Shown here one piece after another: positions 17,163-22,883 of a stretch of 42,584 bases of DNA. The notes under the pieces were generated by a model that saw only the letters and a program-made list of their open reading frames with translations, searched no databases and was not told where the DNA came from. The stretch is from an uncultured Bacteroidia bacterium. Lineage in GTDB: Bacteria > Bacteroidota > Bacteroidia > Bacteroidales > F082. The position numbers and the translations under genes are program-made. The stretch lies in the NCBI GenBank assembly GCA_902783365.1, contig CACZQL010000039.1:1-42584 (forward strand), in the 5' to 3' direction. How positions within the stretch are numbered: position 1 is the stretch's first letter; every line of letters begins with the position of its first letter.

Positions 17163-18233
17163 CATCACTATCTCCACGATGTCGTCCGCCGCGTTCGGTC
17201 TGGCGAACCGTGCGATGTTGGCCTTCATCGTGCGCTGTTTCTCTTGGTCGTTGAGCAGTGCCATGACGGTGGGCAGGAGCTTGGTGGTGGTCTCATCGTT
17301 GCGGACCATCATGGCGGCTTGGGCGTTGACCAGCTGTTGGGCGTTCTTGGTTTGATGGTCTTCGGCGGCGGTGGGCAGTGGCACGAAGACGACGGGTTTG
17401 CGCACCAAGGCGAGTTCGGAGATGGACATGGCGCCGGCGCGCGAGATGACCACATCGGCCATGGAGTAGGCGAGGTCCATCCGGTCGATGAAGACGATGG
17501 GCTTCACCCGGGCTTCGAGGCCCAGTTCCTTCACCTCGTTCACGGCTTGCTCATAATAGAACTTGCCGGTTTGCCACAGCAGCTGCGCGTCGTGGTCCTT
17601 GAAGGAGGCCAGTTGGGCGGAGATGCCTCTGTTGATGCCGAGGGCGCCTTGGCTGCCACCGACGAGAAGCACGATGGGTTTCTTCGCGTCGAGTTGGAAA
17701 TAGTTGGCGGCCTCGTTGCGATCGCACTGGCCGTTGATGTTGCCACGCAAGGGATTGCCGGTGAAATGAATCTTCTCCTTGTCGAACCACTTGTCGAGTC
17801 CCTCGTAGGCGACACAGATGGCCTTGGCTTTTTTGCCCACGTTGCGGTTGGTCTTGCCAGGGTAGGAGTTCTGTTCCTGGATAACGGTGGGGATGCCCAG
17901 CCAGTTGGCTGCTTTCAGGGTAGGACCGCTGGCGAATCCACCCACGCCGATCACGACATCAGGTTGGAATTTCTTCAAGATCTTCCTGGCCTTTATCAGG
18001 CTGCTCACGATTTTGAAGGGCAGTGCCAAGGCGCTCAGATCCTTGTTGAATCCGCTGATCCACAGGCCTTCTATGGGATAGCCGGCCTTGGGCACGCGTT
18101 CCATCTCCATCCGTCCTTTGGCGCCGATAAACAGGATCTCGGCATCGGGTTGCCTTCTCTTGAGGGCATCCGCGATCGCTATGGCCGGGAAGATGTGCCC
18201 GCCTGTTCCGCCTCCACTGATTACGAATCTCAT
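17139..18233 (-). CDS. murG: UDP-GlcNAc:lipid I N-acetylglucosaminyltransferase
   Basis: 364 residues. It makes lipid II from lipid I at the inner face of the membrane. The N-terminal Gly loop is SGGGTGGHIFPAIAIAD, the second Gly-rich loop IGVGGFASGP, and the UDP-GlcNAc site has VGGSQGALGIN and ISRAGAMSISEL. It overlaps ftsW by 4 bp (ATGA-type). The last seven residues, KEVRRKR, are encoded by heptamer-repeat DNA, so the tail may have been altered by repeat insertion. Otherwise it is full length. Confidence 0.97.
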   Translation of the reverse strand: MRFVISGGGTGGHIFPAIAIADALKRRQPDAEILFIGAKGRMEMERVPKAGYPIEGLWISGFNKDLSALALPFKIVSSLIKARKILKKFQPDVVIGVGGFASGPTLKAANWLGIPTVIQEQNSYPGKTNRNVGKKAKAICVAYEGLDKWFDKEKIHFTGNPLRGNINGQCDRNEAANYFQLDAKKPIVLLVGGSQGALGINRGISAQLASFKDHDAQLLWQTGKFYYEQAVNEVKELGLEARVKPIVFIDRMDLAYSMADVVISRAGAMSISELALVRKPVVFVPLPTAAEDHQTKNAQQLVNAQAAMMVRNDETTTKLLPTVMALLNDQEKQRTMKANIARFARPNAADDIVEIVMKEVRRKR

Positions 18234-19519
18234 AACTCCTCCGTTGCTAGTTCTAAGTGTTCAACTTCTTCTTCGTGTCTTGACACGCTTAATATCATGC
18301 CTATGGCGAAGCCCGTCATCAGCATGGAGGACCCTCCCTTGCTGATGAATGGCAGTTGTTGTCCGGTGATGGGCATCAGTCCAGTGGAGACACCCATGTT
18401 GATCATGGCCTGTACGATGATGATGAGGGCGAGGCCAAAGGCGAGCAGTGCCCCGAAGGTAAGGGGTCGTGTGCGCATGATCTTGAAGGCTCTTGTGAAA
18501 AGGATGACATAGAGCAGCATGACGAAGATGCCGCCCACAAGGCCGTATTCCTCGATGATGATGGCGTAGATGCAGTCGGAGAAGGGCTGGGGCAGGAAGT
18601 TGCGTTGGGTGCTCTTGCCGGAGCCTTTGCCGATGAGGCCACCTTTGGCGACGGCGATCTTGGCGTAGGTCTTCTGCGCGTTGCGGTCGGTGATCATCAG
18701 CGGGGTCTCCGCCAGGCTTTCGCCGTTTTCCTTGGCCAGGCGCTTGGCTTCTTTCTCGGCTTTCTTGTCCTCGATACGGCCTTTCCAGGTTTTCACACGG
18801 CTGACCCGGGGCTGTTTGGCGGCCCGTTCTTGGAGTTTGGTGTCTTCGGGGTGCGCCTGGGCCTCGGCCACCACCCTTTCGTACTTCCGCTGGTTGTGGC
18901 TGGCCACAGCGTCGTCGGTGAGGATGTACAGGAGTCCGCCCAACACCGCCACCCCAAGGATGGCCATGATGTGGCCGAACTTGATGCGACCGATGAAGAG
19001 CATGGTGAGGCATACCACAAACAGCATCGCTGCCGTAGAGAGGTTCTCCGGGAAGATCGGCGCCACAATCAAGAAGATGGGCAGTGCGATGGGCACGATG
19101 ATCTCCTTGAACGTGTAGTTTTTTCCGGTGTACAACACGATATATTTGGCCAGATAGGCGATGAGCACGATCTTGGCCATCTCGCTGGTCTGGAATCCCA
19201 TGATGCTTCTTGAGGCGCCGTTGATGCGGCTGCCGCAGAAGAAGGTGAATACCAGCAGGATGACGCTGAAAATCAGTACCAGCTCCACGCCTTTCGCGTA
19301 GTAACGGTAGTCGATCCTCGAGGCGATGTACATCATCACGTAGCCCGCAAGCAGCGTGGCGGCGTGTTTCAGCAGCACCATCTCGTTATAGGCGCCCACC
19401 TTCACCGCAGCCTCCGAGCTGGTGGCGCTATAGACCGCCAGCAGCGAGACAATGCCGAGCAGGAGGGCTACCACCCAGATGACCCTGTCGCCTTTCAATA
19501 TTTTGTTGATCCAGTTCAC
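18230..19519 (-). CDS. ftsW: SEDS peptidoglycan glycosyltransferase FtsW
   Basis: 429 residues with about ten transmembrane segments. SEDS landmarks include a SRSIMGFQTSEMAK-type loop, the GKGSGKSTQRNFLPQPFSD segment, IIIEEYGLVGG and the final MPITGQQLPFISKGGSSM. It polymerises lipid II at the septum with the class B PBP encoded in the same operon. The loop after about residue 205 carries a highly charged stretch of ~70 residues (KAEKEAKRLAKENGESLAE) before the conserved KTYAKIAVAKGG segment, longer than in E. coli FtsW. It lies between the murD-like gene (3-bp gap) and murG (4-bp overlap). Confidence 0.96.
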   Translation of the reverse strand: MNWINKILKGDRVIWVVALLLGIVSLLAVYSATSSEAAVKVGAYNEMVLLKHAATLLAGYVMMYIASRIDYRYYAKGVELVLIFSVILLVFTFFCGSRINGASRSIMGFQTSEMAKIVLIAYLAKYIVLYTGKNYTFKEIIVPIALPIFLIVAPIFPENLSTAAMLFVVCLTMLFIGRIKFGHIMAILGVAVLGGLLYILTDDAVASHNQRKYERVVAEAQAHPEDTKLQERAAKQPRVSRVKTWKGRIEDKKAEKEAKRLAKENGESLAETPLMITDRNAQKTYAKIAVAKGGLIGKGSGKSTQRNFLPQPFSDCIYAIIIEEYGLVGGIFVMLLYVILFTRAFKIMRTRPLTFGALLAFGLALIIIVQAMINMGVSTGLMPITGQQLPFISKGGSSMLMTGFAIGMILSVSRHEEEVEHLELATEEL

Positions 19520-19522
19520 TTT

Positions 19523-20074
19523 TTATTCTTTCATCAGTTTCGATACTTCTTGCTCAAACTGCGCGCCTCTTTCCGAGTAGTCCATGACGTTGTCCTTGCA
19601 TGCGGGTGAGAACAGCACGATGTCGTTTTCCTCGGCGATGATGGAGGCGATGCTGACGGCCTCTTCCATGTCTTTGGCTTCGTAGAACTCGTTCACCGCG
19701 CCCTTGAAGGTCATTTGGATGTTCTCCTTTTCCTCGCCCAGGCTGATGATGGCCCTGACGCTCTTCTTGGCGGTGGGAATCAACTCGCTGTAGTTGTTGT
19801 GTCCGTTGCCGCCGACAATCCACACCACGGGGTTGACGATGTTCTCAAAGGTGAACCAGGTGGCGTTGACGTTTTCGGCTTGCGAGTCGTCGTAATACAT
19901 CACCCCGTCGATGGTGCCGAGGTAATGCTGGCGGTGAGGCATGCTCTGCAGGTTGCCCATGCTGTTCTTGATGCTCTCCTTCCTGATTTCCAAAATCTTC
20001 GAGGAAATCCCCGAGGCCATGTTCTCAGGCCTCTTTCTAACTGTTTTCTCTTTCGATTCAAATAAATATCTCAT
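19523..20074 (-). CDS. Stand-alone MurD C-terminal-domain-like protein in the murD position
   Basis: 183 residues, against ~440 for MurD. Residues 17-183 align by eye with the end of the central domain (NMASGISSKILEIRKESI) and all of domain 3 of MurD (PHRQHYLGTIDGVMYYDDS, NVNATW, VVWIVGGN, LFSPAC, YSERGAQFEQEV). The N-terminal UDP-MurNAc-Ala domain and ATP-binding GTNGKT loop are absent. Expected DSKATN reads DSQAEN (62-68), the Lys after GGxG reads His (92), and SPACAS reads SPACKD (156-161); these positions in E. coli MurD include D-Glu-binding residues. It is therefore unlikely to be a D-glutamate ligase. The frame is intact and spaced normally between mraY and ftsW, and begins after a heptamer repeat. 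Possible roles are regulatory or structural; a decaying remnant is the alternative. Confidence 0.82.
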   Translation of the reverse strand: MRYLFESKEKTVRKRPENMASGISSKILEIRKESIKNSMGNLQSMPHRQHYLGTIDGVMYYDDSQAENVNATWFTFENIVNPVVWIVGGNGHNNYSELIPTAKKSVRAIISLGEEKENIQMTFKGAVNEFYEAKDMEEAVSIASIIAEENDIVLFSPACKDNVMDYSERGAQFEQEVSKLMKE

Positions 20075-20078
20075 CTCT

Positions 20079-20106
20079 CTCTAAATTCTAAATTCTTCAT
20101 TCTTAA
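20079..20106. repeat. Heptamer repeat TTTAGAA x4 between mraY and the murD-like gene
   Basis: On the minus strand TTAAGAA, TGAAGAA, TTTAGAA and TTTAGAG begin right after the mraY stop and end 4 bp before the ATG of the murD-like gene. The order and sequence nearly match the repeat at 451-480. It lies where the missing N-terminal part of murD would be. Confidence 0.88.
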
Positions 20107-21384
20107 TTACCTGATTTTCAATGTCAGCATGGTAAAGGCTGCCAGCAGGATGCTCACGATCCAAAAGCGCATGGTGATTTTCGCCTCATGGTGCAGGTCG
20201 GACTGACCTTTGTATTTCACGGTGCATCCGGGGTCTATTTTCTCGACGAATTCCAACGAGGTGCGGAAATGGTCGTGAACCGGGGTGCGTTTCCAGATTC
20301 TTCGGTGGACGCCTTTCTTCTTGCCGGATTTGTAGTACATCCTCTGGAAGATGACGGAGAGGCTCTCGTAGAGGAACACGCCGCAGATGATGGGCAGCAG
20401 CAGCTCTTTATGGATGATGACTGCCGACACAGCGAGGATGCCGCCGATGGTGAGGCTCCCCGTGTCGCCCATGAATACCTGGGCGGGGAAGCAGTTGTAC
20501 CAAAGGTAGCCCAGCAAGGAACCCACGAAGGCGCTCAGGAACACCACCAGTTCCTCGCTGCCGGGGATGTACATCAGGTCGAAGTGACCCGCGGTGCGCG
20601 CGTTGCTCGAGATATAGGCCAGGATGCCGATGGCAATGGCCATGATGACCGTGTTGCCCGCCGACATGCCGTCCATGCCGTCGTTCAGGTTGGAACCGTT
20701 CGATACCGCGGCCACCGCAAACACGGTGATCAGCACAAAAAACACCCATCCGAGGATGTACATCCACTTCTCACCGGCCCAGCGGAAGAAGTTGGCGTAG
20801 TTGAGGTTGTGGTTCTTCAGGAAGGGGATGGTGGTGCGGGTCGATTTCACGTCGGGACTTTTCACGACGATTTCTTTGTTGTCCTCGATTTTCAGCTTCA
20901 CGGTCTCATTCATCTGTACCACAGGACTGAAGCGCAAGGTCAGCCCGACGATGAGTCCCAGGAGCACCTGACCTCCGATCTTCACCCATCCGTTGATGCC
21001 GTCTTTGCGTTTCTTGAAGGTCTTGATGTAGTCGTCGGCGAATCCGATGGCGCCGAGGAGCAGGGTGGAGATGATCATCAGGATCATATAGATGCTGTGG
21101 AGCTTGCTGACGAGCAGGCAGGGGAGGAGGGTGGCCACGATGATGATGATGCCTCCCATGGTGGGCACACCGGTCTTCTTCACGTTGAAGGGGTCGGTCT
21201 TGGCGTCGCGTTGGGTTTCGGAGATGTTTTTCTCTTTCATCTTCTTGATGAACCAGTTGCCGAACCAAATCGAGATGATGAGGGCGAGGATGGCGGCGGT
21301 GACGGCTCTCACCGTGACGTAGGTGAAGATCCTCGCTCCCGGGAAATGCATTTGCTCGAAATATGAGAACAGGTAGTATAACAT
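20107..21384 (-). CDS. mraY: Phospho-N-acetylmuramoyl-pentapeptide transferase
   Basis: 425 residues, longer than the ~360 of E. coli, as in other Bacteroidota. It transfers phospho-MurNAc-pentapeptide to undecaprenyl phosphate to form lipid I. The first cytoplasmic motif is GVPTMGG, the catalytic Asp pair lies in GFADDYIKTFKKRKDGING, NLNDGMDGMSAGN supplies the third Asp, and MGDTGSL is conserved. An extra segment of about 60 residues after transmembrane 4 (EDNKEIVVKSPDVKSTRTT) accounts for the length. It lies 3 bp after murE. Confidence 0.97.
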   Translation of the reverse strand: MLYYLFSYFEQMHFPGARIFTYVTVRAVTAAILALIISIWFGNWFIKKMKEKNISETQRDAKTDPFNVKKTGVPTMGGIIIIVATLLPCLLVSKLHSIYMILMIISTLLLGAIGFADDYIKTFKKRKDGINGWVKIGGQVLLGLIVGLTLRFSPVVQMNETVKLKIEDNKEIVVKSPDVKSTRTTIPFLKNHNLNYANFFRWAGEKWMYILGWVFFVLITVFAVAAVSNGSNLNDGMDGMSAGNTVIMAIAIGILAYISSNARTAGHFDLMYIPGSEELVVFLSAFVGSLLGYLWYNCFPAQVFMGDTGSLTIGGILAVSAVIIHKELLLPIICGVFLYESLSVIFQRMYYKSGKKKGVHRRIWKRTPVHDHFRTSLEFVEKIDPGCTVKYKGQSDLHHEAKITMRFWIVSILLAAFTMLTLKIR

Positions 21385-21387
21385 GGC

Positions 21388-22883
<1,496 letters not shown>

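Follow-up and report, generated by a model that had tools for sequence, protein, structure and literature searches.

In part of the Bacteroidales, both gut-dwelling and environmental, the ligase gene murD of the dcw cluster seems to have been reduced, again and again, to its C-terminal end. Our preferred reading, to which we give a probability of about 0.6, is that once MurD2-MurL had replaced MurI-MurD, murD was repeatedly cut down to a C-terminal product that was kept for a non-catalytic role. Comparisons of sequence document the pathway replacement, the recurrent truncation, the constraint on the remaining module and the loss of its catalytic parts. With those parts gone and the module both retained and constrained, a non-catalytic function, already proposed in the sequence-only reading of this DNA, is the interpretation that fits best.

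The window (the whole stretch of 42,584 nucleotides analysed here) carries at the murD place a gene for a stand-alone MurD C-terminal module of 183 amino acids (19523..20074, minus strand), identified through its open reading frame, Pfam, TIGR01087, AlphaFold and Foldseek. Upstream lies mraY (20107..21384, minus strand) and downstream ftsW (18230..19519, minus strand, GTG start), both assigned from their reading frames and the locus. The module follows the end of mraY after 32 bp and ftsW starts 3 bp past the module stop, in line with the open frame and operon-like spacing described earlier. Since the ATG start codon (20072..20074, minus strand) stands 62 residues before the ‘D317’ Asp, the protein consists of the closing part of the central domain (the last helices) and domain 3. 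Its match to the MurD profile TIGR01087 covers positions 285-439 of 441 and scores 111.1 bits, below the curated cut-off of 211.95, and Mur_ligase_C (PF02875) is its sole Pfam domain. The UDP-MurNAc-L-Ala-binding and P-loop ATPase domains are missing, and a search of the mraY-ftsW interval returned no N-terminal or central-domain remnant of MurD; the murD place thus holds a lone C-terminal domain that has lost the ATP and substrate domains, as had been claimed.

An AlphaFold model built from 45 sequences reached a mean pLDDT of 78.8, with residues 1-19 and 40-45 unsure and the blocks from residue 51 on at 77-94. Foldseek against the PDB placed MurD structures on top (E 7.7e-12; TM 0.66 by query). 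Compared with MurD (PDB 7ti7, 2uag), the module is homologous over the central-domain end and domain 3, occupies the same operon place and has its closest predicted fold there; unlike MurD, it is without most of two of the three domains and its catalytic and D-Glu contacts are altered. All three altered ligand motifs claimed before (DSQAEN, GGNGH and SPACKD) are present. By residue alignment, His47-Arg48 (19931..19936, minus strand) corresponds to the hinge pair His301-Arg302 of E. coli MurD. DSQAEN (19871..19888, minus strand) takes the place of the DSKATN of catalytic MurD, with Lys319 and Thr321 changed; His92 (19799..19801, minus strand) stands where the D-Glu site has Lys348, and SPACKD (19592..19609, minus strand) where catalytic MurD has SPACAS. 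Three D-Glu-related positions therefore differ in this protein (Lys348 to His, Thr321 to Glu, Ser415 to Asp), of which we take Thr321 and Ser415 to be D-Glu ligand positions in MurD.

The expectation that a complete MurD-type enzyme would be encoded elsewhere was borne out. In the window’s genome, a metagenome-assembled genome (MAG) of 2.75 Mb in 154 contigs and 84% complete, one MurD match exceeded the cut-off (C43:13542-14747, 310 bits). This gene shares 8 bp with a frame of 498 aa that is similar to most of the MurL profile NF041275 (profile 4-396 of 447, E 6.6e-77, 258.9 bits); as the score falls below the curated cut-off of 700 of a model named for Xanthomonadales, a cut-off reached in 0 of the 295 genomes of the order, we call the product a MurL homologue only. 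In Xanthomonas, MurD2 adds L-Glu and MurL then epimerises the product, and MurD2 specificity is set by Glu197 and Arg358, where E. coli MurD has Asp182 and Lys348 (PMC8788868, available to us in part). Among 27 loci fetched around MurL matches, 24 contained a MurD2 match and three none; the 24, from five families overall (20 loci in the window’s genus and four in other families), all combined Glu (before His; D182E) with Arg at the Lys348 place, G000 included. Full-length MurD of the dcw cluster had Asp and Lys at those places in all 51 MurL-positive and 78 MurI-positive genomes read. Judged by these residues, the ligase on C43 is MurD2-like and predicted to be of the L-Glu type, and would achieve the D-Glu step in a different way. 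Because this full-length copy is of a different type and sits beside MurL, the module does not look like its duplicate: the earlier suggestion of a duplicated domain of a murD still working elsewhere gives way to that of a remnant of the original dcw murD.

This arrangement resembles the MurD2-MurL route of Xanthomonas, Micromonospora and Salinispora, in which an E/R ligase likewise adjoins the MurL homologue in genomes lacking a MurI match (PMC8788868). The taxa listed for MurL in the accessible part of that paper are Gamma- and Alphaproteobacteria and actinobacteria, not Bacteroidota, whereas here 97 of 295 genomes of the order are positive; a murD remnant goes unmentioned in that same part (no ‘truncat’, no ‘bacteroid’). 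A literature search, with coverage mostly outside subscription journals, found neither MurL nor murD remnants described in Bacteroidales.

Across the order, MurL takes the place of MurI. In a sample of 295 genomes from 120 families, 97 had MurL, 179 MurI, none both and 19 neither, an exclusion with a Fisher p of 4e-59 when kinship is ignored; the MurL-positive and MurI-positive genomes form few clades, amounting to 1-3 independent switches. Among 40 closer relatives, NF041275 matched in 26 at E<=0.001, one of them so weakly (G022, 5.5e-4) that MurL was counted in 25, and MurI occurred in ten, never together with MurL. MurI was found in 0 of the 24 genomes of the window’s genus, and in a phylum sample of 296 genomes the window’s own genome was the only one with MurL among the matches listed (21 of 296). 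Most of the named relatives are MAGs labelled ‘Bacteroidales’ or ‘Bacteroidia’, many of them sampled from the rumen or from herbivore gut; they include ‘Lentimicrobiaceae bacterium’ SIG104-107 and ‘Candidatus Limimorpha equi’.

The dcw murD has met different fates in the two groups. Among the 97 MurL-positive genomes, 37 from 19 families encode the stand-alone module, so that the module is indeed kept in relatives; 51 have a full-length gene, four a gene that is cut or interrupted close to a contig end (G035, G118, G130, G183) and five no dcw match (G043, G100, G152, G204, G259), which means that the module may be dispensable. For two of these five, the stretch near a Mur-ligase frame was read and contained no MraY. 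All seven catalytic or ligand positions examined are intact in the 51 full-length proteins, whose genomes have no MurI match; MurD may thus still work there, in which case the replacement would be incomplete. Not one true stand-alone module was found among the 149 of 179 MurI-positive genomes examined, which comprised 142 long frames, five short or split ones and two without a match (G040, G194). The five were rejected as stand-alones: contig ends truncate the frames of G286 and G178, the frame of G211 begins at base 4 of its contig, that of G029 is divided by a contig end, and in G234 a frameshift has put the N-domain in an adjacent frame. G038, which represents a twentieth family (f16), encodes a diverged module, and neither MurL nor MurI was found in this genome.

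Where neighbours were readable, stand-alone genes start 4-134 bp (once 249) past the last aligned MraY residue and ftsW comes next. Their frames are open and near-uniform in length (170-199 aa) throughout the 20 families. Stand-alone and full-length states are mixed among sister genomes in seven families (f4, f6, f27, f35, f50, f74, f95). Removal of six contig-edge or cut loci from 117 left 111 for residue counts and the tree; with nine further loci of the genus left out, a MraY plus FtsW tree of 102 loci (45 stand-alone, 57 full; quick method) gave 11 state changes, eight of them forced by starred branches. These changes are separate truncations provided that the missing two thirds are never regained and that no transfer of the cluster took place.

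A Dat-like aminotransferase, as a putative supplier of D-Glu that keeps murD full-length in MurL-positive genomes, is commoner in the full-length group, though not convincingly so. A Dat match (TIGR01121, E<=1e-18, a limit chosen after inspection of the table) occurred in 23 of 42 full-length versus 2 of 38 stand-alone genomes, the latter including G038 with no MurL (Fisher p 1.6e-6). The TIGR01121 cut-off was reached by 0 of these 80 genomes, and ten of the 25 Dat-like proteins, when scanned, had as best model TIGR01121 (four), a related D-amino-acid transaminase (one), branched-chain aminotransferase (four) or PabC (one). Over seven independent pairs, the association fell to a median sign-test p of 0.125. 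Median genome size was 2.7 Mb for stand-alone versus 3.6 Mb for full-length genomes.

The module is neither decaying nor the product of an assembly deletion. After removal of 10 of 66 sequences (L106 with an odd frame, eight full-length loci and L156), Nei-Gojobori estimates for 56 sequences of the genus and near kin gave a median dN/dS of 0.25 and a maximum of 0.55 over 588 pairs with dS 0.05-1.5, the pairs not being independent. In the 178 pairs with all three genes, the medians were 0.24 for the module, 0.17 for FtsW and 0.08 for MraY. The frames thus show neither the frameshifts and stops nor the dN/dS near 1 of a pseudogene. Of the two things that would have spoken against a retained module, relatives with a full-length murD in this place do exist, while neutral decay of the short copy does not hold.

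Residue conservation is selective. The Asp of DSKATN is retained in 54 of 54 stand-alone proteins read and in all 53 from MurL lineages, many of which come from one genus and two of which (G015, G022) are included by genus, with no real MurL match. In these 53, the Arg302 equivalent is present in 45 (Lys in the other eight) and His301 in 49; Lys348 remains in 11, Thr321 in 23 (Glu in 18) and Ser415 in 35. With families weighted, the hinge His-Arg-x-Glu, the Asp, Asn-x-x-Trp, Trp-Ile and the core strands are retained, and the ATP-side His/Asn/Asn and the D-Glu Lys are lost. A hinge role has been described for Arg302 of E. coli MurD (PMC4816537, seen in part). Given the loss of the P-loop domain, of the central-domain His/Asn contacts and mostly of the D-Glu Lys, the module should not be a ligase. 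The module of G028 (f6) still has DSKATN, GGIDKGNDY and SPACASFDLF, as expected from a young truncation.

The truncations share a start. Stand-alone proteins begin exactly 61 residues before D317 in 30 of 54 cases and at 59-63 in 47 of 54 (18 of 20 families); a Met occupies place 61 in 53 of 57 full-length proteins, and the window’s module starts within one residue of it (62 versus 61). As the Met is also found in 69 of 78 MurI-positive genes, the truncated genes may share this start simply because it is the most convenient in-frame ATG. Translation starts in this A-rich, SD-poor group look A-rich and weakly structured. We compared 136 of 137 genes (L269 was dropped, no frame being found) with a control in which codons were permuted among the same amino acids of each gene, leaving protein and codon usage unchanged. 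In the 51 full-length genes of MurL-positive genomes (30 families), A-rich codons and weak mRNA structure peaked no more than 12 codons from the Met; among 107 positions, this region ranked third for structure and seventh for A content, and the next rise elsewhere in the profile was lower, zE 0.63 at codon -220. The regional mean zE was 0.79, versus 0.18 in 78 MurI-positive genes (52 families; p 8e-6 by family means), a contrast that, with only 1-3 switches among few clades, could be a clade trait. At the Met itself, MurL-positive genes (n=49) had a zA(down) of 1.96 and a zE of 0.81, against -0.16 and -0.27 at other internal Mets (n=317; p 3.6e-20 for A content downstream, 1.5e-12 for structure); MurI-positive genes (n=69) had a weaker excess at the same Met (0.71 and 0.15; p 7e-8 and 1.6e-4). 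SD-like sites at the internal Met were not in excess (4 found, 5.7 expected), nor was the promoter motif TAnnTTTG upstream of it (1/49, 0/69).

These profiles support, short of proof, that full-length murD of MurL-positive genomes already yields the module from an internal Met start. A comparable case is ClpB of M. tuberculosis, where an internal start gives a shorter protein (PMC6168691), much like the in-frame second product proposed here; unlike for ClpB, the second product here is predicted and the long form would then have been lost in evolution. The broader statement, that murD of Bacteroidales is a two-product gene encoding the ligase and an internally started C-terminal module with a non-catalytic role in the wall or in division, cut back at least eight times, we hold more tentatively, at slightly under even odds.

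Under our preferred reading, the gene is what remains of the original dcw murD after the switch to MurD2-MurL. The comparisons show that its first two thirds were lost repeatedly in part of the MurL families, mostly to the same start Met, and that purifying selection preserved the module, still in frame, at its place between mraY and ftsW. Since an internal-start product may already have been made, truncation would have removed only the dispensable enzyme part. The module might then be a non-catalytic partner that binds other Mur proteins at the membrane (MurG/MraY/FtsW, or MurD2), so that the second ligation step and the synthesis of lipid I/II stay coupled. MurG has been reported to bind MurD in Thermotoga maritima (PMC6420597, consulted in part); with its gene between mraY and ftsW, the MurD module could be a docking point for the pathway there, or for MurD2. 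The recurrent shrinkage to the same tail suggests a second, non-enzymatic role of that tail. Readings of this scaffold type together have about an even chance, and the main rival is that the module serves MurD2.

According to that rival, to which we assign a distinctly smaller share, the module would be a regulatory or stabilising subunit that binds to MurD2 or to the MurD2 product, and not a member of a MurG/MraY complex. The stand-alone genes read co-occur with MurL/MurD2 or belong to the genus having them, G038 excepted, and the retained hinge residues are those that meet the central domain. Yet MurD2 has a complete C-terminal domain of its own, and MurL coexists with full-length dcw MurD in 51 genomes; moreover, G022 (97% complete) and G038 (98%) have the module in genomes where MurD2 or a real MurL was not found, perhaps through assembly gaps.

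Slow decay seems improbable. In this account, murD is redundant and the C-terminal fragments are leftovers not yet deleted, which the operon structure or a coupling to ftsW keeps where they are. Many stand-alone proteins have indeed lost D-Glu and ATP contacts, ftsW starts near or overlaps the module stop in several loci, and five of the 97 MurL-positive genomes have no dcw match. However, no pair among the 588 exceeds the dN/dS maximum given above, open frames of similar length recur across 20 families from the same start Met, and coupling to ftsW requires the last codons only, not 180. Most searches used the C-terminal domain, which N-terminal-only remnants would escape; a search of 18 genomes with the complete MurD profile placed the clear N-terminal pieces (MurD/MurD2) at contig ends.

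Slightly less probable still is a sensor or regulator, as the sequence-only reading had suggested: a domain that controls flux or division by binding D-Glu, a nucleotide or a precursor. The DSKATN Asp and the Arg302 equivalent are retained, and several E. coli MurD residues near D-Glu sit in this domain (PMC8788868); against one common small ligand stand the low retention of Lys348 (11/53) and Thr321 (23/53) and a loop that varies between lineages. An assembly artefact or local deletion in one MAG, which the 84% completeness and 154 contigs might invite, can be dismissed, as 56 of 65 loci from named records show the same short frame, which also occurs in 19 other families, on contigs as long as 5.3 Mb.

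Mur ligases are suspected members of a Mur complex (PMC6420597), where a complex role is hard to separate from essential catalysis; here nature seems to have made that separation many times. The Foldseek list for the module also holds chains 6h5e and 8ras/8r6s, presumably MurT of MurT-GatD and the MurE-like part of the plastid RNA polymerase. In both, the Mur-ligase fold takes part in complexes with other roles; MurT and the MurE-like part keep more than one domain, in contrast to the single C-terminal module here. The MurD2-MurL route is a proposed narrow-spectrum target (PMC8788868), and the present data extend it to one third of the genomes sampled from a major gut order. If correct, our reading would predict an unannotated second product of a cell-wall gene, whose own role would have been exposed by the replacement of the ligase by MurD2-MurL.

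Several further observations arose from these genomes. G038 is 98% complete in 10 contigs and carries a dcw cluster with a diverged module of 170 aa (C4:294000-306000, the locus L252); full MurD, MurD2, MurL and MurI were all not found in it, which points to a small gap in the assembly or else to an unusual stem peptide. In family f2 (G024, G143, G241), the MurL and MurD2 matches are on separate contigs, elsewhere an adjacent pair, and seven genomes or loci have possible MurL-MurD2 fusions in one open frame of ~885-996 aa (L044 in G023, L052 in G018, L062 in G020, G102, G206, G296 and G130). The heptamer array in the mraY-module gap of the window (TCTAAAT x4.1, 20080..20108, plus strand, found by repeat search) had been noted as lying exactly at the place of the lost part. 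It is not specific to that part, being one of 12 period-7 rows found along the 42.6-kb window, and, read by eye, the corresponding gap of G028 has no such array; a heptamer-driven deletion was accordingly rejected. Such tandem arrays recur along the window, several of them between genes, and one at 21738-21781 lies inside the murE frame and encodes STLNSQL repeats. Finally, FtsW (18230-19519) contains a long charged stretch of ~70 residues (RKYERVV...ITDRNAQ) that looks insert-like by eye.
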